DNA of 64,000 nt from assembly GCA_964036195.1 (NCBI GenBank), contig OZ038458.1, positions 1,984,001 to 2,048,000 of the forward strand, read 5' to 3'. This DNA comes from Sphaerolaimus hirsutus. Lineage: Eukaryota > Nematoda > Chromadorea > Monhysterida > Sphaerolaimidae. Position numbers and translations under genes: made by a program. Each line of letters begins with the position of its first letter. Position 1 is the first letter of the stretch. Below the pieces are notes generated by a model. It made no database searches. It had not been told where the DNA came from and saw only the letters and a list, made by a program, of their open reading frames with translations. Positions 33,964 through 64,000 of the stretch are shown one piece after another.

Positions 33964-33965
33964 AA

Positions 33966-34560: not shown

Positions 34561-34618
34561 GATTTTCCCCTTTTAGCTTCTAAACCTCAAAATAGCCTAT
34601 ATATTGAACCCCCCCAAA

Positions 34619-37442: not shown

Positions 37443-37499
37443 TGACGGCGGGCCACCAAAGTGCCAGACCTACGTCTCTGGGACGGTGACCCAGCGTCA
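37443..37499 (+). repeat. CCTACGYC-loop hairpin, U3 copy 1
   Basis: Core 37,461-37,484: stem CCAGA/TCTGG around loop CCTACGTC. Outer arms TGACGGCGGGCCACC and GGTGACCCAGCGTCA pair at 12 of 15 positions. The same hairpin is at 63,766-63,822 in the 3' LTR. Confidence 0.85.
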
Positions 37500-37572
37500 A
37501 TTAACGCTTACCAAACCCTAATTATGGCGCTTTAGTCGCCGGGGACGCCATATTGACCCCTTTTGGGCCAAG

Positions 37573-37580
37573 TGACGTCA
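37573..37580. promoter_or_regulatory. CRE-like site TGACGTCA in U3, copy 1
   Basis: A perfect palindromic CREB/ATF consensus inside the first copy of the U3 duplication; also present in the 3' LTR at 63,896. Confidence 0.6.
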
Positions 37581-37641
37581 TTACGACGCCGTCCTATACG
37601 GAACCTAACTTATAGGGAACTTACGGCGCAACGAACGCCAG

Positions 37642-37718
37642 CTATGGTAATTGGCGCCAGATCACCAAAGTGCCAGACCTACGCCTCTGGGACGGTGATT
37701 AAGCGTGAATTACCATAG
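37642..37718 (+). repeat. CCTACGYC-loop hairpin, U3 copy 2
   Basis: Core 37,670-37,693: CCAGA/TCTGG with loop CCTACGCC. The outer end is a perfect 11-bp pairing CTATGGTAATT/AATTACCATAG. Confidence 0.85.
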
Positions 37719-37801
37719 AACGGTAAATCGATGGCGCTACGCCGCCGGCCTTAATTAGTGGAACGGCCTAATTAGCTGCCTTTAGTCGTGAAAAGCCCGG
37801 G

Positions 37802-37809
37802 TGACGTCA
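37802..37809. promoter_or_regulatory. CRE-like site TGACGTCA in U3, copy 2
   Basis: A second perfect TGACGTCA in the second copy of the U3 duplication, the arrangement expected of a duplicated enhancer. Confidence 0.6.
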
Positions 37810-38286
37810 TTCGACACCTCCGGGAACGAAACCTAACTTTTGCGGTAGTTACGGCGCTTTCACTAAAAAGAAAAGCAGCGCTGAGTGAAAACTGTGTTTC
37901 CCGAGTGTGGCGGTCAAACGAGCGCCGGCGAACGATTCCGACGGCCGCGACAGCGCCGCGCCGCCACCATTCGACACCCGCCGACCGCCGGAACCCGGGA
38001 GAGGGGGATTTTGGGTGTTTTGGGAGACTTTGGGAACGGGTCGGATCGGCTACTTTTGGCCGAGTGCCAACTTTCAGGAAATGGCACTGAGTGTATTTTC
38101 GAGGGGGTTTAAGCGCTGCCGCCGTATCTTGGCGACAGTTCATTGTTCAAAAACTTGTAAATTCACCCCTACCCAGCCCCCGCGAGCGTCGACAGCGTTG
38201 GCCGCCGGAAACGTCCGCGGAGCGACAGACTTCGGCCGCTCAGAGTTCTTGGTGGGAGTGGCCACCGGAAGGGAGGGCCCCGATAG

Positions 38287-38311
38287 CTCCTGAAGCCTAC
38301 GCCCTTCGGAG
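38287..38311 (+). repeat. CCTACGYC-loop hairpin, U3 copy 3 (GAAG/CTTC stem)
   Basis: CTCC-T-GAAG, loop CCTACGCC, CTTC-GGAG. The stem sequence differs entirely from the CCARR class but still pairs; this is direct covariation. Confidence 0.7.
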
Positions 38312-39140
38312 TAGAGACGGGTCAACCCTTCTGGAGGGATATGTGCCTTAGGTTAAAATTAGTAAAGGGAATTGGAAGAGTGCCAAAAAGGCCGTTTTTG
38401 TGTGTAACTTGGCACATATCCCGTAGCCATTGCTGCCACAGGGAGGAGTTTGTGATGTTTTAGGCTGTAGGTTGTAGGTTTAGGTTGTAGGTGCGCGGTA
38501 GGTGCCGCGGTATGTGATTTATTACGTATGTACATGTATTTATTTGCACTTAATTACCCACCTAAACCCCTTAGTTTGTGATAATTGCATGTGTTTGTGA
38601 TTGTATTTTTACGTTCGCACTTATTTCTGTGTGTTGCACGTATTTCTGTGTTTGCACTTTTGCACGTCGTGTTTAGTTCCACGTTGGCCGATTTGGTACG
38701 CTGGTTTGGACGAGCTCACGTTGAGCAATTACGGTTGTTTTTTTTGTGTTTTTGGTCCTTTTGCAGTTGTTTGCCGTTCTCGAGTAGCTGTGGATTTACT
38801 TGGCATGTTTCCAATGGTATCACGTTTAGTTTTGGAGAGTTTCGCTCAGTTTAGGCACTTTTAAGCTGTTAGTTTGTGCGTTTACATTTGGTAGGTTACT
38901 GTAGGTATTGTACTTTCTAGTTTGGCACAGTTCCAGGTTTGGTTTCATTAGCTGGCTGAGTGCCAGAAGAAAGGTGTTCCTGAATGTCAAGTCACCATTC
39001 CCTTGTTCCATTAAAAAGTAACCCTTGTGGTAACATGGCTCTGTTCAACTGAAGTCACTTATTTTCGGTACACTTTCGAATGCACTTTCGTGATTGGTTG
39101 GCTCCGCCCAGCTGCAAACCGGTTTTGGGCACTTCAAACC

Positions 39141-39178
39141 TATAAAAGAGAGCCCCAATCCAGTGATTGTCATCAGTC
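39141..39178 (+). promoter_or_regulatory. LTR core promoter: TATA box and initiator
   Basis: TATAAAAG at 39,141-39,148 with TCAGTC at 39,173-39,178; the initiator A (39,175) is 34 bases downstream of the TATA start. This marks the probable U3/R border. Preceding sequence includes short GC-rich boxes. Confidence 0.7.
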
Positions 39179-39844
39179 TATTCAATCCAATTCTAATTAC
39201 TAAGTCAGTGATTTACCAGCTGAAATGAGCCTACCCTTGGTTATTCATTCTCTGCTAACTCTGGCATAGGCCTTCTCTTCCCTCTGCACGGTGACATTTA
39301 GGTTCACAGGGGCAGGAGTGGCCACACGGAGCTGCCGGTATAGCTAAGATAGGGTGTTGTATGGGGAGAACCCACCATCTGTGATGCTTACTGTACGTCT
39401 GGACCTCTGTGGACTTGTTTTAGGCGTAGTATAAGCTGAAGTAGGCTGTACACCTATTGACTCGCTCTAGGCTTTCGTAAGGGCCCAAACAGTTGTGCTA
39501 CGTCGTTGTAGATTACTTTTGATAGTGGTGCTGTGCCAAGCTAGGACTTAAGTACCTGGACTTGTGTGGTCTCTTACCAGTGCATCGTATTGCTATCCTC
39601 ACCTGTCTGGTTTAGCTTTCATGACCCTGAGTGTTATTTAGTCATTTTTATGTTAATGTTCTGATTTGGAAAGTGGAAAGGTAAATTGGAAATATTTAAA
39701 TACTTTGGAAGCTTTATTTGCAACGTGAATTGAGAAACCCAATCAGCGTAATTCAAGCTTACTCCGGTGCAACTAATTCTCTACTTAATCTATTGGCTCA
39801 TTCCAGCTAGTGGATCTAATTAATTCTATTCTAATTGGTGAATC

Positions 39845-42800
39845 ATGATGGAAGTTGCTTGTATTTGCTTGCATTCGAGTGATGTTCAATTATCGGTTTT
39901 TGAAGCGTGGGCGAATCTTGTGTCTGTTTCTGAAAGTGCGCCAAGTTCTGAAGGTTTCTGGGAGGTTGATAATTTGGAAATGGGCCCTGCTTTTGATAGT
40001 TTTGAACCCGTGTCGGAAATGTTTCAAATACAACGAAGGGCCACGTATGCGGAAAAGGTTCAGGGCGCTGGTGATTTGGTTGTTGATTCTGTTTTGCCCA
40101 ATGGCGAAGTGGGTTGCGATGCTTCTCAGCAGTGGTTATTTGATCACTTGATCATGGAGCCAGCGTTTATTGAGCCCGGAATTTGTGGTGTTTTTGAGAA
40201 GACCGCTGAAAGGCTGAAGAAAACTGTGCACCCTAGAAACCTTTGGTATTTGGTGGGTAAGAGAGGGAAATTACAGCCGCACGTTATCCGCCGCAAGCTT
40301 TTGCAATTTGCGCGACCGGACTTTGTTAGCTGTGGCAACCAAGTAGACCGAAAAGCTCAGAAGCCTACGTCCTTCGGAGTAGCTAGGTCGAAAGGCACCA
40401 AGCTGGTGAAGTTTGGCAGACAGGGTTCCCGCGCACGCGGCAAGCGTAGGGCTTGTAGGGCAGTTATTGATCGTCCGGTGGACATTATGCCGCTCGTTGA
40501 ATTGTCGGAATTGTGTGATTATCTAGCTGGCGCGTTGCCATCGTTTGTCGTTCCACACGTGCAAAAGGTAACTAAGTCCCCTGCTAGGTGCTGTACATTT
40601 GGCGTAATTAGGCAGGATGGGCTGCATGAGCGCATCGTTGAAAGTTCTGACGGAATTGGACACTGTCCAAGGTGTTGCTATTTGGCTCATAATGATAAGG
40701 TTGTAGTACCCGGGGGTCCACTTTATTATATTGGAGGTCCCACCTCGGGTCACGGCACCGTGTTGCACCCCCCTTTTACCCCCCCTTCACACCGCACACA
40801 TAGCCACCCTCCACGCGTACAGGGCGTAGTGTTTCAGCTTAGCCCTATGCTACCGTGCACATACTGGAACCACAAATGTTGGCTTTTGCGTAAGCGTTTT
40901 GAACGTTTGAAATGTGTGTCACGCGCCTATTACCGTTCGATTTCTTGGCATACTGCCCCATCCATGCTGCAACAGAGTCAAATTTCCAAATTCGAGAGAC
41001 TACGATACACCATGCCCTGGCAGCGATTTTTGATGCGAATTTTGAAATTTTCAAAATCTTTTTCATGTCCTGTGTCAGTCAATTTTCAATTCAAAACTTT
41101 CGATACCGTTGACGTTGAGCCAGAGCTATGTCAATCATGTGAAAAATACGTGACCACTGACTACTCTTACGACTCATTTGATTACCAGTATTTATACTTG
41201 TCAGTTGACGATGGTGCACCATGGTCCTTTGACGATTCTGAGGAATCAACTGTACTAAGCTCGCCACCATGTGCTTCAATTGATAGTGATTCACTAAAAT
41301 GCCAGACCTACGTCTCTGGGATTGTGGACCAGTGTCAATTCGAGCATGATGTGAATTTGGCAGCTGGCCAGTATTCGTATTTGCCAGCTGATGATGGTGT
41401 ATCAGAGTCTTCGGACGACTTTGAGTTTTCAACTGAATGGAGCTTGTCATCGCATGCTTCAATTGACAGCGACTCACTAAAATGCCAGACCGACGTCTCT
41501 GGGATTGCGGGTCACGGCCAATTTGAGCACAGTGTTGACTTGGCAGCTAGCCAGCCTAGTACTCTAGACGACTCTACTTGTGACACGGATGTGGCTTTGG
41601 AACATGTGTGCTCCACTACCTTGTCTGCAGCCCAATCGTTTCAAACAGTGTTTATTGAGGACTCGCTCAATTCTTTCGAAATTATTGACGATTATATGGC
41701 TGACCCTGCTGCACTGAGTGGAGCACACACGACGCCAGATGCCAATGAAAATTACATGGTTCACGCCGCGGATATTAATATGTTGCAGTATAATTCATCC
41801 CTGGGTGTGGTTACTCGCCGCCGCGGCAATTCTAACCAGCAAAGCTTCTTTGAGCTAGACGGTAGGGAACGCGCGCGCCCTGTCGGTCAATGGGCCAGTA
41901 CTAGCCGCCACGGTGTTACGTGTAGTGATGTTGGCGATTCTGTGGGTTCTCGGGGCCGGATGTCTGACCTGGCCACCCCAGCATATACCGCTGAGCCAGG
42001 GATGTCATATGTCAACGAGTCCCGGGATACAGTGCTAAGACGACCCGACGAAGAATTCCCTCACGCTACTAGTTCCCCCTGCTTGAGCATTCAATCTCCT
42101 AGCAGACCCCCCACCTCTGTCTGTGACCTAAGTACCCCCGTGAAACCACCACCTTCTAACCCCGTTAATAGCCCTCAACCCCAACCCTTCACTGGGCCGG
42201 TAAGACAACATCGAGAATTACTGACGAATAACCAATCAGAGATTGATACTATGATTTCCCCCTTGCAACAAGCATGTGAACCTACTAAATTATGGGATCA
42301 CCTGAAACCCTCAGATCAGTGCATTGGGGATGTGTTACAACCCTTTGAAAAACTTCTAAGCGAACTTGATCCCGAGATAAATAAGTTAGACCAGCTATTG
42401 TTTGACCTTGCCACTGTGACACCTTCTGACCCATCCCAGCAAACCACTCTGGATAATGTTACCTCGGCCCTGATGACCCTCCGAACGTGGTCACAGGCAA
42501 TGTTGCCATTCCGTGGATCCCTGCAAGACTCTATTGACCGTACTTTAAGTGTTCACTTGAAACCCCGGGTTGACTCCCTAGCGGGTGATTTACAGTCCCT
42601 ACTGAGTAACTTTTGTGCTGATGCGAATGCCCTAACTAAGCCCCCCGTGGATGTGTCCACGCTGGCTCAGAGACAAGCGAACCAGCAAGTACTGGCAGCG
42701 TCAGACCCTGGCCCCGCGCGCCCACAGTCATGCGCCTACCCCGTTCAGTGTGCACTGGCGTTTGTGCAATCCGTTTTGCTCGTTTCTGCACAGTCAGCAA

Positions 42801-45800
42801 GGGATTGGACTACCCTTCGTTCTCAGATTCAGTCGAAATCAACGGCTGGTGTTTTTGGCCTAGAAAATAAGGGAGTATCCCAAACAGTGCGCGCTGCAGC
42901 TCTGCGTAGTTTGACAGAAGCCTGGGTTTACCTCGATGTGCACCGAACCGGATTTAGCACGTACATGCCATTGCTTGGCACCTTGCCAGAAACAGCTCGG
43001 TACGCTATGGCACAATTTCATGGGTGCATAGCTGAAGGCATTCGCCTCAACCATGCGTTTGCGGATATATTACCTGAGATTAAGCGCCAAGTTAATGGCC
43101 CTGTTGCTCGTAAGACAAGGAAAGAATTACTGGCACATCTTGGTAATACCCTGGACTCTGCCCGGGACCTCTTGTGCCGCTTAGAGAATTTGGATTTTGC
43201 GCAGTACAATGCCCTCTGTGTAATGCATATCGGTCGGGTCTCAGACAGGTGTACCCCCCAGAAATGTCGGTTGGTGTGTCAGAATCTGCTGAACAATATT
43301 GGTTTTGGATTAGACTGGCTACACCAGTTGCGTGGAAAAACCCCTGTTCCGACACCCAAACCACAACCTTCGAGAGTACTCGAGCCACACCAGAGTGCGC
43401 ACCAACCATCAATGTATACTACCCCGTTGAACCGTAGCATTTCAACTTTACCCCCCGCCTGGAATAATGTCTTAGTAGCCCATCTAATGAGCCCCGATCC
43501 TATGCGGCGCTTGGCGACACATCAGTGGCCGCCTGATCCTTCTATCAAAGTGCAAACTGACCCGCCGCGCATTGTACTGACTGACTTATCCATGCACGCT
43601 TGGGTAGAACCTGTAGGGCCGGAGTTCTCTGTTGGCCCAGTGGCTGAGCTGGATGTCAAAACCACTTGGGTCGGTCGTATTCTGCCTACAGTCGGTATTA
43701 TGGACACACCCTGGGCCATCATTGATCCACGGAACACCGATCTCGTGCGCGCGTATTCTAAGTTGTTGATCGCCGCGTATTTTGAGTCTGAATACATTTT
43801 TCAACTCGTGTTTCGTTATGGCTGGTTCCCAGATAGCTTACTCACTGCATTTCAGCGCTGCGCCTTCCTTGTGCAAAAGCTTGTTGACACGCTTGATCGC
43901 TCTATTAAGCATGGTGAAACGGTAGGCATAACAGACACCTATCCGCTACCCGAACAGTACCATATTAATGGCCGCTTTTTGTATAAGTTGGCTAGTGATG
44001 CCCGTCGCGATTACACACAAGTTGGGGCTAACTACAATAAGTTGGCACGACGATACGGGGCGGTGACTGTGCACACTACTCCGATGCTTCCAATTGACCG
44101 AAATAATCACTTCGAGCATTCTCGCCGTCGCTTACAGTTGCCTACCGCTCAAAACGCTCACTCACAGATGGTCCGGGTAACGAATAGTGGCAGCTATGAT
44201 GCTAACGTAGATATGATTCAGCCGGATGATGTAGGAACGCGGGACAACCAATACGACTTTCTGTTGTCGCACCAGGGTTATCAGCAGCCTGATTCGGCTG
44301 GTGGAGCCCCTGTGCCCGCCGCTGTGCAGGCGCCCCAGCGATTATATCATACGGGACACCAGCACACCGGTAGGCTCTCGGTTCCACCAGCACACCCCAG
44401 CTCTTCTGTAGCACCCACTTCGGCTCTAGATCAACTTAAGTCAGAAATGGACCAGAAATATGCTAATATGCGTGACCAGATGGAGGCTATGAACGCTAAC
44501 ATGCGAGCCCTATTAGACCAAAGGCGTGCTCAATCACGAGCTCAGCCCCAAGTTTCGCAACCAAATGTATCAAATGACCCGCCTAGCACCACAACTAGTT
44601 CAGATGAGGATTTGGCTAAGCGTATTAAGAAGCTTAAGATGCTTGGTTGTCCCATGTTCTCGGGTAAAACGTCTGTTGATGTCAGCCAGTGGCTAGCACA
44701 GTTCACCGCGAAATGTAAGATTTGCAAAATAGCCTCTGACGAAGAAATGGCCTTGACTCTGGCCGCTGTGTTGGAACATGATGCAGCGACCCTGTGTTAT
44801 GGTCAACCACAGGAAGTCCAGACCTCTTTTACGAAATTGGAGTCAGCTCTTAAAGCTCATTTTGGTCAGGCGAAACATGTGCTAGCTACATGCCGAGCGA
44901 TCACACTTATGAACTGGAAACCCAATGATACGATCGATACTGTGCGACGCCGTTTGATGACCGAATCGGCACAGTTAAAAAATGTGAATCATAGCGAGCG
45001 CGAATTGCGTATGATTGAGGGATTTTTGCACGCTTTGGGTCAGCATAACTCTGAGTTGCGTCAATTAGTGGAGTTAAACTCTGCTGCACTTGAGTCTTTC
45101 GACAAGCTGATCCAGCATGCCAAAGTCGCTCAACAGTCCTTGGAAAACCGTAAGCTTGAGCAAGACCACTCAGCTAAGGATACTGAGTTTAAGCGCATGC
45201 GCGATGAACTCTCGCAACTGCGGCAGCAAATGTCTAGTGCACGCATGGGCGATAACCGTCAGCAGTTGGGTGGCGGTATGCTAGCTGGCCAACGGCCAAT
45301 GTTTCGACCACCGATGGATATGCGCCAAAACCCGCGATTTGCTTTCCCTCCGCCACAAGCGCAGCCTAGTGCTCAACCTCCGTTCAATGCACAGCGCATG
45401 CCGTTTAGACCGCAACGGGATATTCCGCCTATGCGTCTACCTCCTGCCGTACAAGGCCCGCGCTTTGCTCCGCGTCCAACAGTTGATGTAGGGCCACCTG
45501 TGGTAGCTATTGACAAGCCCGGTCGACAGCCTCCCAATGCTTACAAGAGCTATTTTTGCGACAAATGTAAAATGTCCGGCCATACCACTGAAGAGTGTGG
45601 TCGTCGTGCAACCGGCCCTACTTCATCTGGCCCTGCACCAGCCCAAACGCCGCGTGAGCCACTTAAGTGCTTTAAGTGCAATAAGCCTGGCCATTTCTCG
45701 CGTGAGTGTCCCGAAAACACGCCTGCGCAGAATGTCAATGAACTGTACGCACAGTATGATATCATACCCGACGATCAAATTGGTTACACTGATTTGCAAG

Positions 45801-51046: not shown

Positions 51047-51162
51047 GACACCCTGGAAGTTATAATTTTAAGTAACAAGTAATATATGTGAGATCGTAGT
51101 TTAAGTTTCTCTCTTGTCTAAGTTTCGTTTTAGTTTTCAAACAACCTGTGGTTAGACCACGC

Positions 51163-51207
51163 AAGGGGGGAGGAGTGTGATGCCAGAGGTCCGGTATAGT
51201 ATGTAAC
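51163..51207 (+). repeat. Internal polypurine tract plus LTR-start-like sequence
   Basis: AAGGGGGGAGGAG followed by TGTGATGCC and GGTATAGTATGTAA closely matches the 3' polypurine tract and LTR start at 63,690-63,757. It lies 117 bases after the Gag-Pol stop, where a normal gypsy element would have its 3' LTR. The likeness ends after about 35 bases. Confidence 0.75.
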
Positions 51208-53046
51208 CTTATGTAGTAATTTTTTTTTTTTTTTTTTATATGTAATTTTTCTTTTATGTAATTTTTCACGGAATTGTTATACGTAATCTTTTTATGCAAC
51301 TTCTCTATGTAATCCCTCTTAACGTTTTTCAAAAAAATTAGATATCTTCTCTTGGATTTGTATGATACCATTGGCATCATAACCCAACCATTGAGCATGT
51401 TGCTAACATCCCGGTATGGACATGTCACTACAAATTTTAATAGTCAGGTTGGAAGTAACGCGTCCTAGGTGTCGACCACAGGCACCGGGAAACGTCTTGC
51501 TACTGCACCTTTATACATCTTACTTCGTTCATGTGGGTTACCTGTTGCGTGATATAGGACACCTTGTAGACTATTACGGGTGAGTAGAGAAAAAGTTGCA
51601 CCTCCTCAAAAGATCGTGAGGCCCAGCTAAAAAGATTGTCGCTTTCACATTTAGGCTGTGTGAGTGGTATACTTAAGTTGTTGGGAACACGGTAGTGATG
51701 CAAAAAGTGAGAGCATGTTTTTGTGAGGTCGCTTGGGTGCCGCGGTGTCCTCAATGCGCGAGAGACAAGTGCTTGCTCATGTCTCTCGCCCATCGAGGGC
51801 AGACGTTGTCATCGACAGTTTGAGAAGTGGCCGTCTGAGTGAGACTCTCCATGCATGTTGATTGTCCGTACCCACGGCTATTATTTACCACTGTCCGTTC
51901 ATTGTCTGAAAGCGCCCAGCTGGTAGTGCATTAACACCACCTACTTACTCTGTGATTATTGTGTCCTCTTAACCATTGTCCAACTCGCACGTTATTATAA
52001 CCTTGTCCATTAACAGTAGGAAGACGTGCCATGTGGGGTGCGCGTTATAAGTTGCTGATGACCCTAAAGTCCCAAGCCTACGTCCCTGGGATTGGGCTCA
52101 TCAGCCACTTTACGCCGTTGTGTTTTGGCTCTGATATTTTGGGTAAAAGATATCTACCCACATTACGGAGAAAAGATCATCTCCGTCCTGATTGAGCCCC
52201 ACTATGCTTACCACCCTGTTCGCCTTAGACCGCGCCCCATAGGTCTCCACCGCGGACTCGTTAGACAACCTGACACCCAATTTTTGTATTAAAGTTGTAA
52301 CCTCCCCAAGCGCGGTAGTTCGCTTTGGCCCGCCGCACTTAGTGGGATAAGCGCTGCTTCCCTGCTACCTTTTGCATCTTTTTCATTGCATACAACGTCT
52401 GACAAAAACCCCTCTCAATACAGACTTGGGTACTAAACTTCCCCGCCCCGCACCCGGCCCGTAAATTGTATTTCTCGGAGGGCGACTTCGCCCGCTACCA
52501 GCTTCCCCCCGCTTTATTGTACTTCGTGGCCATTTGGGCGTGCTAGTCGCTGTCTTTTGCCTTTTTGGTGAGTGGACGCGATTACCCTTGTGAAGACCTG
52601 TCATGTTGGGAGGTGTACTGATGTTAGCCCTTTGATCACAGATTGTGTCGGCAGTGGCTCGCTGAACGCCTTCCATTTCGCTGCCTCCAGTTCTGTTGTT
52701 AAGGTGACTTAATTACTGTTGTCGTGCAATAATTCAGTGCGATGTAGCCGGTAGTGGGAATAGCGTGAACCACCAGTTTTGAACACCGCAGTGTCTTCTC
52801 GATCGTGCAACGCGTGCACGTTTGCGATCGACGCGCGGCTCGTTTTTGCCGTGCCCCGGTCAAGTTGGGACCACTGGTTGTGTGTCCCTGGAAGTTGTGG
52901 TGTGATTATAATTGTTATGTGTTTTTGTTGAAATTTAATTCTTCTGCACATTCCCTGTTTTTTTCGCGTGAGTTTTAATGTTGTAAACTTTTGTTGAAAG
53001 TTTTGATCCCGGTAGAAAACTTGTTTTGTTTTGAGGGCGCGTTATA
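51208..53046 (+). other. Inter-ORF region with one hairpin
   Basis: About 1.8 kb with no credible coding frame. It begins with T-rich, ATGTAATTTTT-like repeats (51,210-51,300), contains one CCTACGYC hairpin, and becomes GC-richer before ORF2. How ORF2 is expressed (internal promoter, spliced mRNA or IRES) is not evident; no convincing TATA box or branch/acceptor could be singled out. Confidence 0.5.
52054..52105 (+). repeat. CCTACGYC-loop hairpin between ORF1 and ORF2
   Basis: Core 52,069-52,091: GTCCCAAG/CCTGGGAT, loop CCTACGTC. Outer GCTGATGACCC pairs with GGGCTCATCAGC. Confidence 0.85.
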
Positions 53047-56000: not shown

Positions 56001-59000
56001 GGGCACCCAGACCGCTCTGCATTGCCAGTGCGCTGTAGTCGTGGTGGTGGGCAACGATTGGTTTGTGCATGACATTGAATTCGGGCAAGTGCGCTGCGTT
56101 TTCCCGCGCGGCCGCTGCACCGACTTGATCGAGACGCACATTCTCGACGAGGCGAATTTGCCCGAGGCGGACACCGCTCGTGTCAGCCGGAATTATGGCG
56201 ACATCGCAGCCTATAAGGGCGAGCCGCCTCAGGCGGACACTGTCGAGTGGAAGACGTGGGTGCTGGTGTGTCAACTGAACGGGATCTACTATGGGTGGGC
56301 AACGCCCCCAGTTGGCAAACTACTGCCCACGCTGGCCGCCGACATGTGCCCCCTCGAGAAAGCCCTGTTTGACCTGCAAGTCCAAGGGGCGCGGCTGGAC
56401 GAAGTTGAGGCGCTAAACTACTTCCACGCCGTGATCATGCATGTCGGTCTGGTGGGAACACGCCTCGCGCGGCCGGAACAGCCGGCGGACATTGGTGCAA
56501 CGCCGCTCGCCTCGCCATTCTGTTATTTTTACGATGAAACGAGCCGACTGGCGGTGCACATCATCTGCGGCTGGTGCCCGCGTGAGTGGACATCCCGCGC
56601 GATCGAACGGAACATGCGTATTTTTCAGCCCTACAGCGAACGCCCGCTACCCCCCGGTATTCCGGCCAAGTCAACCCTCGATAGGATCATAGCCGGCCAA
56701 CAGCTGGCGTACGAGCTGCGCGAGCAGTACTTCGCGGTGTTGCTAGGGGCACCCGCTTGTGAGCCCCAGGGGCGTGTCCAATTTGGTGCCTCCTTGCCCT
56801 ACCAGCTAGCTCGCACACAACCAGCGCTTTCGTTCAATCAGATTCTGCAGGTGTTGCACTCTGTGAGAAGCCAAATTGCCCCACCGGAGCCGCAGGAGCC
56901 CTTACGGTTTGATGTCATCCACAATGCGGAGCATTCCCTCATGCGACGGGCCGACAATCAGGATCCCTCTGCAGACCCAATTGAGGAGGTTCGCACGAGC
57001 GGGACTCCTGACGGCAACCCCGTTCATACTTGGTTGACTAAGGTTTACCCGCATCACGGCTGCTTTGACGACGGACGCCCCGTGGAGGACGTCGCGGGAT
57101 TCCAGGGGGCGCAATATAGGTCGGCGCCTAACCGCCTGGTCAATTTCTTTTTCGACCCGCACAAGCGCCCCTTCACCCAGCTAGCTTCTGGCGTGCGCAC
57201 GTGGGATGTCGGCCTGGTGGAGCCTCGTGCCTTGCCAGTTCCCGATGACCCCCGCCGGCGCATTTTGAACCCTGACGAGTCGGCAGACGAAGGGATGTCC
57301 TCGGCCGCCCCTAGCGTGGTGGGACAGCTGGAAATTGCAGTCCCAATGGAGGTCGCGGCCGACGGGGAGCAGTCCGATGCGGGTGTCTCGGCTGACCACG
57401 TCCCGGAGAACTGGCTCCAAGAAGTGGAGGCAGCGAACCGGGCCGAGGGCACCTACAGACTCCGCATCGTACCTCTTCAACCGGTGCGAAACCAGCTCGC
57501 TAAAGAAGTGTTTGAAAGCGCAACCGATGACAGAATTCGCGCTGTGGCGAGGGCGTTGCTTGGTCACGACGACTCAGGGAACAAAGAGAGACTGGACGCG
57601 CTGGGTTTTTCTAAAACAGCGGTGTGGTCGTCGTTTGGCTTGGTTGATCCCTTAGAACCGGCAGCGTATTTGGTGCCGGAACTGGGAGACGACCCCTTTG
57701 ACGGTTTTGGACCGATCCCACTCCGCGACGCCTACGTGCCACCGGCTGCACTTATTCAGCCAGACGGTGATGTCCAAGTGGCCCCGGTTAACCCGGCCGT
57801 GAATAGTTTTCACACTCACGAGCAGGGCCGGCGGTTCTTCCGCGAGCAAAATGTCCCGTACATTACGCTCGAAACAGGGTTGATTCTGGGTATTATGAAC
57901 AGCACCCCGTATTTCTACTACGAGGTCCCTGTTGAGGGCCGCATGATCGACGTTTGGCGCCGGGAGGCCTGGCTACCCATGACGCAGTACTGGGATGATC
58001 TGCTTCCAGACCACATCACGCAGTTGTTTACCATTTTTCGCCAATATTACGCGGCGACAATGCAAGGGGAAGACGTTCGACCGTTCTTCAACTTGGGGAC
58101 TAAACAACTGCAGTTAGTGCGGAATGCAGGGCTCCCACCTGCGGCGTCAGGGGAGGCCGAGTCGAATCACTGGTTGACAAACGCGTTTGGGCCGGCTGAA
58201 CGCGCGCGCTTAGTGGCCGTCGCGAGGACCAGAGGGCATTATAACCCTGATTGGTCCCCGCGACACCCGTTGAGGAGGGCCATGAGCGAGTGGCTCCAGC
58301 CGGAGCAAACGTACGCACCCGGTTGGGAGAGGTTACACGTCGAAAGCGTGCCCCTCCCACTCCGCCCCCTTTATGCTGAGATGCTTATGAGCCTCAGCTT
58401 GGACGAGTCTCGGTACACCTCTAATGCAGGACGCGCCTTGCCGTTCTTCCTTGACAGTTTTAGCGACAAACCGCCCTTGACCTTGGAAGTGCCTGTGCCA
58501 CCCAATGTCTTCGCCGACTCGGAAGAGGTACTGCCTACTCTGCCAATAGGGCACCGCTATTTCGGCGGCGGTACGAATGCGTCACTGACTAGGTGCATCC
58601 TGAATTGGCTGGCGTTTTGGCGCAAACAGCGGGAACTCCTACGCGTGTTGGTGCTGTCAAACGAACAGTGGGCGGCATACTGCGTGCGTTTCCCCGAAGC
58701 GCCACGAACTTGGGTCAGGTGGCAAGACCGACTTAGGCAGGCAAACCCGGACCAGCTGCGGGCGATGCTTGATGAGACTCAGGACGAGTTTACGGCCTTC
58801 TTGTTGCGCGCGAAGATCGTGTGTGCGACTGTTAAGAGACCCTCCGATCTTGTCTTGCAACCCGTGCTGAACACGTCTTTAGGTCGTTGGCTCGACTTTC
58901 GGTTGTATATCCTCCGGCTGCTGGCACTGGATGGGAGTCCCGGTTTGGGAAGACCGGACGTGCACGCAGGCGTGGGTACGATATCGATTGGCGACTACCA

Positions 59001-59859
59001 CACGTATCTATTCTTCTCCGGAGATAGTCCGTTGGGAAACTTTTTTAGGGCCCCTATTCCACTAATGGGCGATCTGTACGTGCCGTCATCTGAGCACTTG
59101 TATCACGTTCTGCAGTTGATCTTTAGCGGGGATCACGATTTGATTGTGCCCCTGCTCAGGCACTCGGAGCCTAGTCGCTGCAAGTCTCAAATGACGTCCT
59201 GGCGTAGGGAGGGTAGAATCGCCGGCTGGAAACAGAAACAGCGGGAGTGGCACAACTGCGGTCTTGCCGTTGCAGCCATGCACGCTGTTTTGCGACTCAA
59301 GCTGGCGACCTGCCCGGCCTACCGGAACGCCCTCGCTAACAACCCCGACTCGATTTTTATCGAGGCGAGCCCACACGACCCGTTCTGGGGTATTAAACAA
59401 GGTATGAACGACCGGACTCTTTGGACGAACGTAGAATCGTGGGGTGCCAACTGGTTAGGCCGGTTGCATATGGCAATGGCGGGACAATTGGCCCGTGGGG
59501 CTGCCCAACGGCCGTGGCCCGTCCTGAGTCTGAATGAATTGGTGGTGTCAATCTTGGCAAAGTGTAAGGGTGCTGTTCAGCGCCCAGCGCCAGTCCGGCC
59601 GCTGCCCACTGCCCTGCTGAATGAAATTGCTCGGTGTGATGCGGTTGGGCGCTACGCCCCTGGCGCCGCCCCGGTGACCATTTTGACCGTTCCTTTTGCT
59701 GAAGGTCAAGACCCACGTATATTGACTAAACAGCAAGTGGCGTTGGGCCAGCGCCCCATTCCGCAGCTCGCAATAATCGAGCGTGAACCCAATGGGCCGC
59801 GAGGCGCAAACAAGGCAACTCGCAGGATGCATCGCCTGCGCCAGGCTCGTACCAAGTAG
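53047..59859 (+). CDS. ORF2: 2270-aa accessory protein with C-terminal NADAR/YbiA-like domain
   Basis: One intact frame; the ATG has A at -3 and G at +4. Residues about 1985-2150 match the NADAR (YbiA/DUF1768) pattern in order: FFSGDSPLGNFF (1989-2000), SSEHLYH with E2017, a Trp/Lys helix region (GWKQKQREW, 2060-2068), EASPHDPFWGI with E2106 and D2111, and GANWLGRLHM (2133-2141). Members of this family act on ADP-ribose-containing substrates, and some reverse guanine ADP-ribosylation of nucleic acid. Nothing here shows which substrate applies. The other about 1980 residues are unrecognised. Residues about 880-1010 have a weak likeness to an OTU-type cysteine protease layout but without a clear catalytic Cys. 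Long Pro-rich and acidic linkers separate blocks. The gene is visibly GC-richer than ORF1, hinting at a separate origin. It is not Gag, Pol or a typical Env: I see no signal peptide or transmembrane pair. Confidence 0.9.
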   Translation: MAQAHASTSVYNDDGVLWDVLHRDGVIRRSLSTLDSPDSVSVSSTVFELGDHIANFSPTAFEETLNSGNHRLLDQALLKDANAFLRTCNLPTLSDVPNRLCEVLTFSAARGLPPKLFVTPRRSNDWRLAGVDVTGRQLAEQMLTAVRNHASTIRSAKREVVAAVATFIPEMFLYPVNEPGRQRFGFRSLLDYTPEDPFDGWMHTRSAFVRKFKQIWACHPGDPIVQVFIQNARQLENLGDYLPTVGQDQPKAISISLGYKRPRDSRDKNPFLVSLCFPNRVVVHVPIALLRSTTNNWTPLGGKLLFAWGDPRAVRLYASEAERETLSGMSGTPPPPCNTTGTTTTTTQWLSCIPVLEKLLLTTDELRVEHKDDCTDISVEVLVAAAWQLFSGQTLKCPIGSKHTPIDTVEVQVNDAWFANASSPAPRDLPAILEIQGYRAQTILDLFIFACWNSIRSPVARPIEAVDHFRSISDDGGTGFMPTHQLDVVGHRLSHRHPPKQLRRSSNAFCERNQRPAPSDLHLNWLEDLVITYLGRVLYRLLTDRSLTTWTWAQRGGMPTTGPQWCRWLQELRDVWRFSDAAVCILQRLREIVPCVLTSMLASYLAAGSRATPKMLIVLLPQIFQYVNWFFLMLIRSDEPSMETMMSVHIRALWGELKIARSVTPTDGGPPTLVVALDLEQDRVFGSTDAPMSALRWKLASPLSPALKSYTHCFLEWMNYARFQQHSDIAYKPQPHPLLPADAYARATFLLWQGPAPYRYDEPELEFDEDLPNHQLRGLPRIDHAAVYGDVRGRLEAVGEGRLYDTTPLATVLDFSARTKSCGPVPMASIHNANTHPLLRWQVPTVPWASPRSDFGRMHVGVPPLRTLNSRSWSFLNHGRGAWDTVAASEGVFYLMPLCAGTLSPLLACMHILRQTHAPSADFPARLLATACAMANVEWLDVVTGRAEVPRRCWLSTLAIHYGIPTVLLYSENSTPPNAFGVYGQGTQTALHCQCAVVVVVGNDWFVHDIEFGQVRCVFPRGRCTDLIETHILDEANLPEADTARVSRNYGDIAAYKGEPPQADTVEWKTWVLVCQLNGIYYGWATPPVGKLLPTLAADMCPLEKALFDLQVQGARLDEVEALNYFHAVIMHVGLVGTRLARPEQPADIGATPLASPFCYFYDETSRLAVHIICGWCPREWTSRAIERNMRIFQPYSERPLPPGIPAKSTLDRIIAGQQLAYELREQYFAVLLGAPACEPQGRVQFGASLPYQLARTQPALSFNQILQVLHSVRSQIAPPEPQEPLRFDVIHNAEHSLMRRADNQDPSADPIEEVRTSGTPDGNPVHTWLTKVYPHHGCFDDGRPVEDVAGFQGAQYRSAPNRLVNFFFDPHKRPFTQLASGVRTWDVGLVEPRALPVPDDPRRRILNPDESADEGMSSAAPSVVGQLEIAVPMEVAADGEQSDAGVSADHVPENWLQEVEAANRAEGTYRLRIVPLQPVRNQLAKEVFESATDDRIRAVARALLGHDDSGNKERLDALGFSKTAVWSSFGLVDPLEPAAYLVPELGDDPFDGFGPIPLRDAYVPPAALIQPDGDVQVAPVNPAVNSFHTHEQGRRFFREQNVPYITLETGLILGIMNSTPYFYYEVPVEGRMIDVWRREAWLPMTQYWDDLLPDHITQLFTIFRQYYAATMQGEDVRPFFNLGTKQLQLVRNAGLPPAASGEAESNHWLTNAFGPAERARLVAVARTRGHYNPDWSPRHPLRRAMSEWLQPEQTYAPGWERLHVESVPLPLRPLYAEMLMSLSLDESRYTSNAGRALPFFLDSFSDKPPLTLEVPVPPNVFADSEEVLPTLPIGHRYFGGGTNASLTRCILNWLAFWRKQRELLRVLVLSNEQWAAYCVRFPEAPRTWVRWQDRLRQANPDQLRAMLDETQDEFTAFLLRAKIVCATVKRPSDLVLQPVLNTSLGRWLDFRLYILRLLALDGSPGLGRPDVHAGVGTISIGDYHTYLFFSGDSPLGNFFRAPIPLMGDLYVPSSEHLYHVLQLIFSGDHDLIVPLLRHSEPSRCKSQMTSWRREGRIAGWKQKQREWHNCGLAVAAMHAVLRLKLATCPAYRNALANNPDSIFIEASPHDPFWGIKQGMNDRTLWTNVESWGANWLGRLHMAMAGQLARGAAQRPWPVLSLNELVVSILAKCKGAVQRPAPVRPLPTALLNEIARCDAVGRYAPGAAPVTILTVPFAEGQDPRILTKQQVALGQRPIPQLAIIEREPNGPRGANKATRRMHRLRQARTK

Positions 59860-59883
59860 TACCTACCAGACACAGAGGAGCGC

Positions 59884-59950
59884 GGTGTATGGGCGTTGGG
59901 ACTAAAGTGCCAAGCCTACGTCCTTGGGATTGCCCCGGCGCAAATACACC
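59884..59950 (+). repeat. 3' array hairpin 1
   Basis: Core 59,907-59,930: CCAAG/CTTGG, loop CCTACGTC. Outer GGTGTAT/ATACACC and GCGTTGGG/CCCCGGCGC (two G:U pairs). Confidence 0.85.
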
Positions 59951-60030
59951 CAACTCCTCGATGTCTGATCGATTGTATTTTTGGCAACTGTGTTGATGGC
60001 AAATGTTATACTGTTATGTGAGCTTATCAA

Positions 60031-60079
60031 GCCGGAGGATTAAAGTCCCAAGCCTACGCCCCTGGGATTATCCAATGGC
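60031..60079 (+). repeat. 3' array hairpin 2
   Basis: Core 60,045-60,068: GTCCCAAG/CCTGGGAT, loop CCTACGCC. GGAT/ATCC and GCC/GGC outside. Confidence 0.75.
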
Positions 60080-60134
60080 GATGCCAGATTCTTGAAATTT
60101 AACTACGCAGTTATCCTTGTCATGACGACGCAAT

Positions 60135-60191
60135 GCGGTGTTGGGGTCTAAAGTGCCAGACCTACGTCTCTGGGATTGCCCCCAGCACTGC
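60135..60191 (+). repeat. 3' array hairpin 3
   Basis: Core 60,153-60,175: CCAGA/TCTGG, loop CCTACGTC. The outer 12-bp GCGGTGTTGGGG/CCCCAGCACTGC pairs throughout with G:U. Confidence 0.88.
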
Positions 60192-60302
60192 GTGGCGACG
60201 TACTGACGAGGTACTGTTATAATGCCTCACACAGTTGTGCAATCTTCGAACGCTACTTATTTCTGAAACTAAAGGGCTCCTCTCTCTTGCATTGCATGTG
60301 CG

Positions 60303-60374
60303 CTATGATGGCTGACTGGTGAATTAAAGTCCCAAGCCTACGTCCCTGGGATTATTCTAAGGCCAGCCGCATAG
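60303..60374 (+). repeat. 3' array hairpin 4
   Basis: Core 60,329-60,351: GTCCCAAG/CCTGGGAT, loop CCTACGTC. Outer CTATG/CATAG and GGCTG.../CCAGCC with a bulge. Confidence 0.78.
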
Positions 60375-60417
60375 TCGCCAGAATAGTATACCCTTACTGA
60401 CAGCTTTATTGTGTAAT

Positions 60418-60474
60418 GTGCCGTCGGTGGCTAAAGTGCCAAGCCTACGTCCCTGGGACTGTCACTGGTGGCAC
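60418..60474 (+). repeat. 3' array hairpin 5
   Basis: Core 60,436-60,459: CCAAG/CCTGG (one A-C mismatch), loop CCTACGTC. Outer GTGCCGTCGGTGGC and GTCACTGGTGGCAC. Duplicated as hairpin 8. Confidence 0.8.
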
Positions 60475-60609
60475 ACGGCATGGTATTGCTGGCCTTTTCA
60501 ACTTGAGATCACTCGTTTCGCCCTTAAAATTTCTTCGGTCGCGGAATTCAACCAAGCAACCTGAAGCCAACAACTGTAATTGTTCATTTTGAGACAGTGC
60601 CACCTCGCA

Positions 60610-60667
60610 ATGCGGTCTGGTGCCTAAAATGCCAAGCCTACGTCCTTGGGATTGTCATCAGCCGTGT
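60610..60667 (+). repeat. 3' array hairpin 6
   Basis: Core 60,630-60,650: CCAAG/CTTGG, loop CCTACGTC. Outer ATGCGGTCTGGTG and CATCAGCCGTGT. Duplicated as hairpin 9. Confidence 0.8.
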
Positions 60668-60887
60668 AGCGTTGTGGTGCGTAAAATGGGTTTAAATAAC
60701 ATCAGGGAATAAACTAAATGATCTCAGGATGTAATAGTCACACCGTCTGCCTCGTTTACGATTTTATTCTTCATTTTTACGCATTTTGCTGTAATTTCTT
60801 CCGCATTTGGGATTTTTCCCCCATTCTTGTCAATTTTTAGTTGCCATTTTTATGTTTGGTGTGATGAGTAATAATTTATACGGGCGC

Positions 60888-60956
60888 GGTATGTGTGCGT
60901 TGGAACCTAAAGCGCCAAGCCTACGTCCTTGGGGTTGGCATCGACACACACACACC
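60888..60956 (+). repeat. 3' array hairpin 7
   Basis: Core 60,911-60,935: CCAAG/CTTGG, loop CCTACGTC. Outer GGTATGTGTGCG pairs with CGACACACACACACC. Duplicated as hairpin 10. Confidence 0.85.
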
Positions 60957-61013
60957 AAACCCTCTCTACCAAGCCAGGATATTATACCCTTATTGACGGC
61001 TTTACTGTGTAAT

Positions 61014-61070
61014 GTGCCATCGGTGGCTAAAGTGCCAAGCCTACGTCCCTGGGACTGTCACTGGTGGCAC
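61014..61070 (+). repeat. 3' array hairpin 8
   Basis: Core 61,031-61,055: CCAAG/CCTGG, loop CCTACGTC. Copy of hairpin 5 with one arm base changed. Confidence 0.8.
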
Positions 61071-61209
61071 ACGGCACGGCATCGCTGGTCTTCTCAAATT
61101 GACAATCACTTGTTTCGTCCTTTAACCCCACTGGATTGCGCAATTCAACCAAATGCTTTGAAACCAACAATGGTAATCAATTATTCTTCGGAAACAGTGT
61201 CACTTCGCA

Positions 61210-61267
61210 ATGCGGTCTGGTGCCTAAAATGCCAAGCCTACGCCCTTGGGATTGTCACCAGTCGTGT
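61210..61267 (+). repeat. 3' array hairpin 9
   Basis: Core 61,230-61,250: CCAAG/CTTGG, loop CCTACGCC. Copy of hairpin 6; the loop changed T to C. Confidence 0.8.
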
Positions 61268-61492
61268 AGCGCGGTGGCGCGTAAAACGGGCTTAAGTTAT
61301 CTCAGGAAATAAATTAGCAACCTCAGGATTCAACAGTTATGTCACTATTTTGTTGTAATTGGAAATTGTATTTCCCCATTTCGCGCATTTTTTCTGTCAA
61401 TTCTCCTGCAGTTTTGGGACTTTTCCCTTGTTCTCGCCATTTTGAGTCGCCATTTTTTGTTCTTGTGTGATGGGTAGTAATCTGTGGGAGTG

Positions 61493-61560
61493 CGGTGTGT
61501 GTGGGTTGGGACCTAAAGCGCCAAGCCTACGTCCTTGGGGTTGGTACCGATACACACCCA
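61493..61560 (+). repeat. 3' array hairpin 10
   Basis: Core 61,519-61,540: CCAAG/CTTGG, loop CCTACGTC. Outer GGTGTGTGTGGGTTGG pairs with CCGATACACACCCA. Copy of hairpin 7 with several arm changes that keep pairing. Confidence 0.85.
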
Positions 61561-61631
61561 CCTAACTCTTTTAAATAAAAGGAAATTTTATATTTTTGAC
61601 TGCAACTTTGCACATATTTTTAGCGTCACGT

Positions 61632-61705
61632 CTCTGAGGGCCAGGTTGAGGGGTTAAAGTGCCAAGCCTACGTCCCTGGGACTATCCCGTGGCCTGGACC
61701 CAGAG
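61632..61705 (+). repeat. 3' array hairpin 11
   Basis: Core 61,659-61,680: CCAAG/CCTGG, loop CCTACGTC. Outer CTCTGAGGGCCAGG pairs with CCTGGACCCAGAG. Confidence 0.82.
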
Positions 61706-62264
61706 GCAGCGCGAATCTCGCATTTCTTGTTATTGCGTATTTTTAGCCGCTCTTTAGCAGATTTACTTCAAACGCATTTAATATCGCTGCGGGCAATTAC
61801 TTTAGTTTCTTGTAACGCTATGCTATTTTTCGCATTGATTAAATTTGTGCTTAAATTAAACCGCGTGGTCGCATTAAGGAGGGGCCCTGGCTTTACATGT
61901 GTATTGAGAAATGTCAGGACGGCCCCCCCGGTCATTGTGTAATTGTTTGGGACTGGACTCATGGAATTTTGTGCACACAGTTTTCCTTTAAAACTCCAGT
62001 GACCTTGAACACTCTCCTTTAAACAGCCACCTGGATAAAGACTATTTGCTTCCCACATTTAAAGTAATCACCAATAATTTTTGCTGGTTATGGCTGGGAA
62101 CAAATTCTTGCAGCCACACAATGGCCATATTAGTGAAAAACAGTTTAGTTCAATTTCACTTCAATCTTCATGTTTTTCAAAAATCTCCTCATGTTTTCCT
62201 TGAAACTTTAACGGAACATTTTTTTTGCACAGGAAACATTTTTCCGCACCTATCCTTCTTGACA

Positions 62265-62832
62265 ATGGATCAAAATCAAAATGCTGGCCACACTCATTGC
62301 TTGACAATGTCTGTCATGACTGGTTCACCAAATATAAATTTCCATGAATTTATGTACCAAGGAGATAACGAAATTGTCATGCGTGTGACCGCTGGGGAAA
62401 TGCGGCTCACACAGCCACTTCAACGTGAGCTTGACTGGCAAGATCCCCGTCGTGAAAAGTGAGAAATTTTCATGGGTTCAGTGTAAAAATTGTGCACAGT
62501 GACTGAAAACTCCTTTCAGCTTGAGCGAGTCTGTCCTTCTGTGGGGAAATACGGCTTTTGGAAATGACCAGCCACTGTTGGCAGTAACTGGCCATGTGGC
62601 ACTGATCCAACAATGTCAAATTCATGGCACTGGCATCCCAATGCAAGTAGCGGCCCACTGTCTACCGAATAGGGAGCCGTCCATTTCACCAACTGATTTC
62701 ACTTATGACCCGCATCTTCCCGTTGGGCCTCCCATGCATGTGACCACGCGAGTTATTAATCCAAATAGTATTCCTATCATTATCACTCTGGAACAAACTG
62801 GCAATTTTGTAGATATTAAGTTACAATTTTAA
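62265..62832 (+). CDS. Possible spliced third gene of the element (168 aa, two exons)
   Basis: Exon 1 from ATG at 62,265 to 62,458, a 61-base intron 62,459-62,519 (GTGAGA ... TTTCAG), and exon 2 62,520-62,832 ending TAA. The splice keeps the frame exactly (507 coding bases with stop). A further acceptor-like TTTTTTGCACAG at 62,221-62,232, just before the ATG, suggests joining to an upstream leader exon, as with subgenomic env mRNAs. The predicted protein has alternating hydrophobic residues typical of a beta-rich fold; I recognise no family. It carries no signal peptide or membrane segment. It could be a captured host gene fragment. Hairpins are absent here, unlike the flanks. Confidence 0.55.
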
Positions 62833-62997
62833 AATGCCAATGGCTACAATGCTGCGTTGAGTATGATTCTCTGCTTTAGGCCAACCGTAGTAATTTCAAC
62901 ACAATAATAGTTAAAAGCTATTTTTGTATTTGCTATCATTCTTTTACTATGGTACAGGTGAACCACGACGCGTAGTAATTTAGTTTCTAGTGTAAAT

Positions 62998-63054
62998 TGG
63001 GTGCAGCGGTCTAAAGTGCCAAGCCTACGTCCCTGGGACTGACCAAAGCACCCA
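62998..63054 (+). repeat. 3' array hairpin 12
   Basis: Core 63,016-63,039: CCAAG/CCTGG, loop CCTACGTC. Outer TGGGTGC/GCACCCA and GGTC/GACC. Confidence 0.85.
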
Positions 63055-63685
63055 GTGTGTATGTTTTGATATCGCTTTTTCGGAAATTTTCTTCTAGTAA
63101 GTGCAGTTAATCAGTTGCACGCGGCGATTTTTGGTAATCGTGTGGAGGTAAACCGCTTGGCCACGTGTTTTGTGAAGTTAGCCGCGAATTTGATTAGTAG
63201 CTGCGTTTGTGCCACCAAGAAAAATGTCATTTGTTTGTGCTTGCGATTAGACTGAGAATTCTTAGCTGAATGTTTTCTACCGGGATCCCTTTTGTGAATT
63301 GTTGTATTTCGTGCTGTTGTGAATATTTTTAGCCTTCGTAGTTTGGTTTCATTTAGTCACGTTTAGCTGATCTTTTCTTTTAAGTGGCATTCCACTTGTC
63401 TTACGGTCTCACTTACGGTTCTCATGATTCTTGCCTTAAAATTTCTCTCGCCATAATTTTAGATTCTGTTTCGACGCTTTATTAGGGTGCTTCCAGTGCA
63501 CATGTTTGCGTATTTTCCAGGGTTCCACTTGCGACCTCGTAGTAGTTGTAATTCACCTCAAACATTTACCTGCAATACACCGCAACGCTTTAAATACATG
63601 AAAATATCAATATCAGTCGACAGTTCCTTGAAAACAGTAGATAACACCCTCTTCGCCGCTGCTGCGCTGACTAACCCGCGCTTTT

Positions 63686-63703
63686 AGAAAAGGGGGGAGG
63701 AAG
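63686..63703 (+). promoter_or_regulatory. 3' polypurine tract
   Basis: AGAAAAGGGGGGAGGAAG immediately before TGTGATGCC, the expected plus-strand primer site next to the 3' LTR. It is nearly identical to the internal tract at 51,163-51,175. Confidence 0.85.
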
Positions 63704-64000
63704 TGTGATGCCTGTTCGCGCTGGGTCAGCGCTCAAAAGGTCGGTATAGTATGTAATGCGAGAACTGACGGCGGGCCACCAAAGTGCCAGACCTACGTCT
63801 CTGGGACGGTGACCCAGCGTCAATTAACGCTTACCAAACCCTAATTATGGCGCTTTAGTCGCCGGGGACGCCATATTGACCCCTTTTGGGCCAAGTGACG
63901 TCATTACGACGCCGTCCTATACGGAACCTAACTTATAGGGAACTTACGGCGCAACGAACGCCAGCTATGGTAATTGGCGCCAGATCACCAAAGTGCCAGA
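63704..64000 (+). repeat. 3' LTR, first 297 bases
   Basis: Begins TGTGATGCC after the polypurine tract. From 63,752 it looks identical to 37,429-37,677 over all 249 visible bases. It contains a full hairpin (63,766-63,822), a CRE-like site, and the first half of the second hairpin, cut by the window end. Confidence 0.9.

Follow-up and report, generated by a model that had tools for sequence, protein, structure and literature searches.

A dispersed family of hairpins selected as RNA in a giant LTR retrotransposon of the nematode Sphaerolaimus hirsutus

A 64,000-nucleotide stretch of the Sphaerolaimus hirsutus genome (assembly GCA_964036195.1, contig OZ038458.1, positions 1,984,001 to 2,048,000 of the forward strand; hereafter the window) carries a giant Ty3/gypsy-type long terminal repeat (LTR) retrotransposon, in which LTRs, a CCHC knuckle, and the order reverse transcriptase (RT)-RNase H-integrase are all present. 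Along this element runs a family of hairpins that are under selection as RNA and whose pairing is kept between element copies. We propose, with a probability of roughly 0.45, that a single sequence-specific RNA-binding protein, probably encoded by the element, would dock at these hairpins to mark and condense an RNA of about 27 kb.

Across the window, 21 stems carry an exact CCTACGYC loop, every one on the plus strand between 37469 and 63792, and one further hairpin has the loop CCGACGTC at 41490; the copy at 63792 is the 3' LTR duplicate of 37469, leaving 21 distinct sites (Table 1). This agrees with the first-pass annotation, which had described about 22 hairpins with a near-invariant loop in U3, open reading frame 1 (ORF1), the inter-ORF region, and the 3' region. 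Every exact CCTACGYC on the element's plus strand has a stem (21/21), and the single occurrence on its minus strand has none. By comparison, a first-order Markov simulation of the element that kept dinucleotide steps yielded a mean of 0.695 loops and 0.015 hairpins over 200 runs. A covariance model built from the window hairpin sites (R1) recovered 22 full hairpins at 42–76 bits, besides a hairpin truncated where the window ends (15.6 bits) and a match attributable to chance (E 1.4). Low-complexity words aside, all 11-mers seen at least four times in the element belong to the hairpin.

Each hairpin is built from an apex of five inner pairs and an 8-base loop, a 3-nt A-rich bulge that interrupts the 5' arm between the inner and the outer stem, and a variable outer stem in which offsets from -13 outward pair with those from +17. 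Between the bulge and the inner stem lie the pairs -8/15 and -7/14, followed by a G.G or C-G step (-6/13). The bulge had escaped the first-pass annotation, and its A residues at -11, -10, and -9 are present in 22/22, 21/22, and 20/22 copies. Likewise new is the recognition of the GAAG/CTTC sites at 38296 and 40364 as a divergent, lower-scoring subtype (42 bits, compared with 49–76 for the other 20 full matches). The inner stem does switch between forms as had been claimed, but it is not always paired: the commonest form, CCAAG/CCTGG, was missing from the earlier list and contains an A.C mismatch, and the inner pair -2/9 is an unpaired A.C in 8 of the 21 sites. At the -12/16 contact, 85 distinct hairpins (17 of the 102 collected were discarded for having fewer than three outer pairs in register) show U/U in 69 cases and C/G in 16, while window sites 40364 and 46296, which are among the 17 discarded, have A/U; the rows being related, we take this pattern as a hint of a contact or a bulge shift.

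Covariation supports the stem. Across the 21 aligned sites, 79.2% of stem cells are paired compared with 62.9% after shuffling, and the covariation score is 0.486 compared with 0.220; neither value was reached in 500 shuffles, and the count of further pair types was reached in 8 of them. Sliding the partner by 1–3 columns lowered pairing to 30–49%. Four sites (41490, 61040, 61237, and 61526) sit in duplicated segments, and because related rows may exceed shuffles we removed these duplicates. The remaining 17 sites retained the signal (pairing 76.5% versus 61.2%, covariation score 0.453 versus 0.212, 0/500 shuffles), with both-side pair changes reached by 1/500 shuffles and further pair types by 2/500. 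The earlier statement that all outer arms differ yet pair thus fails for the four sites in duplicated segments and stands for the other 17, which covary. A 0.6-kb tandem duplication at 60377–61566 (79% identity) doubled three of the hairpins. In a fixed register the outer stem alone is paired in 68% (21 sites) and 64% (17 sites) of cells, indicating that single sites carry bulges and mismatches. Duplexes between a site's own arms average -29.5 kcal/mol, compared with -16.7 kcal/mol for arms of different sites (22 arms, duplicates included), with the strongest single cross pair reaching -42.7 kcal/mol.

To follow the hairpins between copies, we compared the window with five other copies that are nearly complete and two that are partial. 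Single-side stem changes kept the pair in 95 cases and broke it in 38 (data from 20 of 21 sites), and double changes compensated in 10 cells (8 distinct) and failed in 2. In total, 2034 of 2078 stem pairs were kept, whereas reassigning these substitutions at random among stem positions with the same base kept 2005 ± 4, with a maximum of 2016 in 500 runs. Pairing is therefore retained beyond what randomised changes allow, and the covariation that the first-pass annotation had anticipated is borne out both among sites and among copies. Non-coding sites changed at 13/840 positions in -12 to -1, 19/560 in the loop, and 6/629 in +8 to +16 (38/2029 in total), while flanks outside -35 to +40 changed at 0.095–0.142 per base (about 0.11), so that the core changes at about one sixth of the flank rate, in counts that include LTR pairs and duplicated segments more than once.

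The five coding sites separate constraint on RNA from constraint on protein. Synonymous changes number 2 per 178.7 sites in the core (0.011), 19 per 268 in the outer stems (0.071), and 278 per 2041 in the flanks (0.136), whereas non-synonymous rates are similar throughout (0.035, 0.031, and 0.039, respectively). Synonymous constraint in the core combined with similar non-synonymous rates indicates that the constraint acts on RNA, not protein. A protein-motif reading of the coding sites was rejected on this ground and because one of the five lies in another reading frame.

The placement of the sites also favors RNA over DNA structure, as had been proposed at first pass. Among 128 hairpin cores in the fetched loci (at least one counted twice, as two loci overlap), 126 lie on the element's strand and the other two are in an inverted LTR fragment. 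Outer-stem cells contain 26 G:U and 14 A.C combinations, the corresponding inner-stem counts being 10 and 9. Folding gives a modest strand signal, with mean energies of -30.7 kcal/mol for sense and -27.6 kcal/mol for antisense and the sense strand better in only 12 of 21 sites; strand adherence of the cores and synonymous constraint are the stronger evidence for RNA. A DNA cruciform is unlikely given the one-strand placement and the synonymous constraint, and a microRNA precursor was rejected by reasoning only, because the conserved part is the loop and not the stem.

We then asked where the motif occurs. A genome-wide search with one exact 20-mer, CCAAGCCTACGTCCYTGGGA, found 459 occurrences (348 Mb, 762 contigs) and none for a backward control. 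The first 100 places listed, all on one contig, form 14 clusters, 13 of them with at least four sites; clusters were split by strand, and no opposite-strand place was seen within any of them. Eight of the 14 clusters were aligned to the element, including the sole single site, which lies in a truncated copy with an LTR. All 128 cores in the fetched loci lie inside the element and none in 53,338 non-element bases, so the possibility raised earlier, that the motif might be equally common elsewhere, found no support in this sample. Rfam 15 gave no match at the hairpins (37000–64000, both strands, E up to 10), its sole match in that interval lying elsewhere (E 1.6, below the gathering score). Exact hairpin patterns were absent from viral contigs and from bacterial and archaeal genomes, a result of little weight since these are not animal genomes.

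The carrier is about 29.6 kb long by reckoning. Its ends were read from other copies, two of which show 4-bp target duplications (CATG and TATG), and its LTRs, with the 3' LTR continued on locus L009, are 99.97% identical over 3306 bases. A TATAAA at 39141 leads us to take U3 as about 37429–39170, and from the TATA box and LTRs the element RNA would measure about 27 kb. Immediately after the window copy's 3' LTR comes an inverted 838-bp piece from the start of the LTR (L009 3307–4144), as self-integration could leave. A polypurine tract (63688–63705) is separated from the 3' LTR by some 45 bases rather than adjoining it, in this copy as in L011 and L024. LTR pairs of the copies, at 98.7–100% identity, mark the family as young, and a ratio of non-synonymous to synonymous differences (pN/pS) of 0.03–0.32 by segment indicates purifying selection on its ORFs. 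At synonymous sites the copies differ by 0.30–0.34 per site in ORF2, compared with 0.12–0.15 in ORF1, which points to mosaic descent.

ORF1 starts inside the LTR (39845–40730), making about 295 codons LTR-encoded; these have a pN/pS of 0.32 and no stops among the compared codons. In the copy at locus L025, ORF1 stops after 304 residues. No Pfam family scored above the cut-off in the N-terminal ~1600 residues, after which, by position, a Gag-like stretch may follow; the RT-to-integrase part begins at residue 2733 by Pfam. The most basic 20-residue stretch, residues 186–205, is identical at 17 of 20 positions across the window and four copies and is a candidate arginine-rich RNA-binding motif. 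Relatives of the RT region share at most 45% identity among the 120 of 230 matches listed, and none was found in viral contigs. For ORF2, no homologue was found at E ≤ 0.001 among 8000 candidates scored, in solved structures (E up to 1), or in viral contigs. At locus L035, a copy from which some 5.2 kb of ORF2 is missing retains the 3' hairpin cluster. The 3' region also contains a third small ORF (62265–62832) with predicted exons at 62265–62458 and 62520–62832 separated by a 61-nt GT-AG intron (62459–62519); neither exon has a Pfam match.

How might the hairpins work? A nearly fixed loop and bulge on changing stems, present in many copies and selected as RNA, suggest repeated recognition by one partner, in keeping with the recognition that the first-pass annotation had suspected. 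As sense-strand structures in the long element transcript, the hairpins would offer the variable outer stem as a scaffold and the 3-nt A-rich 5' bulge together with the 8-nt CCUACGYC loop as a recognition surface. Bulge and loop would be read by a single RNA-binding protein whose most likely source is the element itself; an element-encoded partner seems likelier than a host partner because no core occurs outside the element in our small sample. Candidate binders are the zinc-knuckle (CCHC) part of ORF1 and its LTR-encoded basic N-terminal part. About 20 bound sites could provide avidity and mark the RNA as the element's own, and, in the manner of dispersed packaging signals, binding may help to compact the ~27 kb RNA and single it out for assembly into particles. 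At odds just short of even, then, we favor a dedicated RNA-tagging system in which an element-encoded binder and some 20 near-identical bulge-loop tags identify, compact, and route a very long RNA.

Several observations weigh against this proposal. The number of hairpins varies, with 16, 18, 18, 19, and 19 in five copies and 21 in the window (scan for loop, allowing at most one mismatch, plus stem, with chance matches sorted by eye; one extra weak site in one copy was detected by R1 only). Sites are also unevenly spread: U3 holds 3, the part from there to 46445 holds 5, the rest of ORF1 none, the inter-ORF region 1, ORF2 none, and the 3' region 12. The 12 sites in the 3' region compare with 3.1 expected (binomial P 9e-6) and the absence from ORF2 with 5.4 expected (P 0.002), in a test that treats duplicates as independent although tandem duplication enlarged the 3' cluster. 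The absence from 46446 to the end of ORF1 compares with 3.7 expected (P 0.02), for a boundary chosen after the sites were seen; the RT-integrase part from residue 2733 is likewise without sites. Because of the 3' concentration, most sites would also be present on any spliced mRNA, which alone would not discriminate genomic from spliced RNA. At coding sites, raw core rates (10/348 at -12 to -1, 8/232 in the loop, 4/261 at +8 to +16) are only about half to a quarter of the flank rate (0.044–0.078), because the core also takes non-synonymous changes. Run by itself, RNAalifold found seven inner pairs together with a competing pairing that spans the loop, and it did not detect the variable outer stem. 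Finally, an AlphaFold model of ORF1 residues 1–420 (5-row alignment) gave no usable fold (mean predicted local distance difference test score 28.8).

The strongest rival, which we regard as unlikely though worth serious attention, is that the hairpins are a nuclear export or RNA-identity signal recruiting an element-encoded Rev- or CERV-like adaptor, or a host export receptor, for unspliced RNA. The LTR retrotransposon Cer1 requires its own protein CERV for export of its genomic RNA (PMC10309623, in the excerpted text). Here, an intron is only predicted in the small 3' ORF; genomic RNA bearing it would need to leave unspliced. Together the 3' region (12 sites) and U3 (3 sites) would place 15 of the 21 hairpins close to the 3' end of a full-length transcript, and the conserved basic stretch of ORF1 also fits; five hairpins, however, lie far upstream in ORF1. 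Two retroviral export elements likewise speak against this reading: the Rev response element (RRE) and the constitutive transport element (CTE) are single compact export elements, not some 20 scattered hairpins with one loop.

Less probable still is that a host RNA-binding protein docks at the hairpins and regulates how element mRNAs are translated, stabilised, or localised. Clustering of 12 of the 21 sites in the 3' region, variation in site number between copies, and a nearly exactly kept loop motif would all suit such a role, but host targets might then be expected, and the 53,338 non-element bases, a small sample, contain no core. We consider RNA-RNA recognition, in which loops pair with each other for dimerisation or compaction or with another RNA, improbable. 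The loop CCUACGUC includes the self-complementary ACGU, and kissing loops are reportedly treated in a Ty1 study of dimerisation; the T/C loop position, however, differs in 20/99 comparisons, the C form is not self-complementary, and loop complements are absent or rare within the element (GACGTAGG 0, GGCGTAGG 1). That a single mobile hairpin, or duplicated segments, spread without selection, which would account for the 4 of 21 sites that are duplicates, is very unlikely given the rate and covariation tests, since in the other sites the outer arms pair despite their differences, changes compensate among copies, non-coding cores change at about one sixth of the flank rate, and synonymous sites are constrained.

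Table 1. Coordinates of the hairpins and other features of the element in the window. Hairpin rows give the loop position; scan, loop/stem scan.
Feature	Position	Strand	Remark
5' LTR	37429..40730	+	3.3 kb, TGTAATG...TTATA; holds ORF1 start
Hairpin, loop 37469	37441..37504	+	U3; scan + R1
Hairpin, loop 37678	37650..37713	+	U3; scan + R1
Hairpin, loop 38296	38268..38331	+	U3; GAAG/CTTC subtype; scan + R1
ORF1	39845..51046	+	3733 aa; CCHC knuckle, RT, RNase H, integrase by Pfam
Hairpin, loop 40364	40336..40399	+	ORF1 inside LTR; GAAG/CTTC subtype; scan + R1
ORF1 residues 186-205	40400..40459	+	ORF1 codons; most basic 20-residue stretch, net +9
Hairpin, loop 41307	41279..41342	+	ORF1; scan + R1
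Hairpin, loop CCGACGTC at 41490	41462..41525	+	ORF1; segment duplicated with 41307; R1
Hairpin, loop 46089	46061..46124	+	ORF1; scan + R1
Hairpin, loop 46296	46268..46331	+	ORF1; scan + R1
Hairpin, loop 52077	52049..52112	+	Between ORF1 and ORF2; scan + R1
ORF2	53047..59859	+	2270 aa; NADAR domain near C-terminus; free of hairpins
Hairpin, loop 59915	59887..59950	+	First of 3' cluster; scan + R1
Hairpin, loop 60053	60025..60088	+	scan + R1
Hairpin, loop 60161	60133..60196	+	scan + R1
Hairpin, loop 60337	60309..60372	+	scan + R1
Hairpin, loop 60444	60416..60479	+	scan + R1
Hairpin, loop 60637	60609..60672	+	scan + R1
Hairpin, loop 60920	60892..60955	+	scan + R1
Hairpin, loop 61040	61012..61075	+	Tandem duplicate of 60444; scan + R1
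Hairpin, loop 61237	61209..61272	+	Tandem duplicate of 60637; scan + R1
Hairpin, loop 61526	61498..61561	+	Tandem duplicate of 60920; scan + R1
Hairpin, loop 61667	61639..61702	+	scan + R1
Hairpin, loop 63024	62996..63059	+	scan + R1
3' LTR start	63752..64000	+	Extends past window end; carries duplicate of hairpin 37469 (loop 63792) and 5' part of the 37678 copy

Elsewhere in the window, a BEL/Pao element (9768–18083, minus strand) has a viral fusion glycoprotein-like domain, and an ORF at 1037–6775 shows a PNMA-like match (below the cut-off) and a fusion glycoprotein-like match. Two arrays of a 48-bp repeat at 30513–34080 have open frames on the minus strand. An inverted repeat of 598 bp at 33966–36293 is 100% complementary (99.8% over 595 bases by a second comparison), with arms 1132 bp apart.

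Known RNA signals resemble the hairpins in part. In classical retroviruses the 5' packaging signal sits in the leader that separates the LTR from gag, whereas here ORF1 starts within the LTR (39845) and the 3' region holds 12 of the 21 sites. In place of the single compact structure of an RRE or CTE, the element has 21 separate hairpins over 26 kb. The trans-activation response element (TAR), the iron-responsive element (IRE), and similar RNAs have a 5' bulge below the apical loop and are read by protein, as our hairpins may be; unlike them, these RNAs occur once or a few times per RNA and have other loops, and the hairpins drew no Rfam match.

The closest likeness is to the dispersed packaging signals of RNA viruses such as MS2, in which many stem-loops with differing stems have a loop motif and a bulged 5' A in common, according to the excerpted text of PMC6281560. 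The MS2 motif described there is short, (x)xYA plus the bulged A, whereas 7 of the 8 loop bases are nearly fixed here (PMC6281560). In common with packaging signals, the element has several stem-loops with one motif (21 sites) and a structure selected as RNA. Its sites occur in the LTR, ORF1, inter-ORF, and 3' regions but not in ORF2 or in ORF1 past 46445. Unlike in MS2, the carrier is an LTR retrotransposon, and neither ORF2 nor the RT-integrase part holds a site. A review of Ty1 and Ty3, likewise concerned with cis-acting RNA of LTR retrotransposons, states that cis packaging signals are not clearly defined and that multiple scattered sites are thought likely (PMC4974528); its excerpted text maps cis sequences to both RNA ends and does not describe a repeated hairpin family. 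Cer1 with CERV is alike in the handling of unspliced RNA by a retroelement, although the excerpted text does not define an RNA target for CERV (PMC10309623). Burro, a planarian Ty3/gypsy element, is similarly giant, with a very long ORF1 and extra ORFs (PMC6431247); its host-like domains (BIR, ankyrin, MATH, and others) were not found here by Pfam at E up to 0.001, where ORF1 has CCHC and pol domains only and ORF2 NADAR only, and the two mentions of "hairpin" in the excerpted Burro paper concern Helitrons (PMC6431247). A literature search restricted to open-licence papers found no such hairpin family in a retrotransposon.

On these comparisons, the hairpins may be of the same kind as the protein-docking hairpins of RNA genomes, on a new carrier and with unusually strict conservation, a likeness that we do not extend to membership among packaging signals. 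If RNA tagging is true, they would form the first repeated, high-specificity packaging or export code in an LTR retrotransposon, as far as our limited searches show. How LTR retrotransposons choose and pack their RNA is poorly defined; here the putative signal is a clear, repeated, and strongly selected module, which makes the question directly testable with short RNAs and bears on how a retroelement can handle an RNA of about 27 kb.

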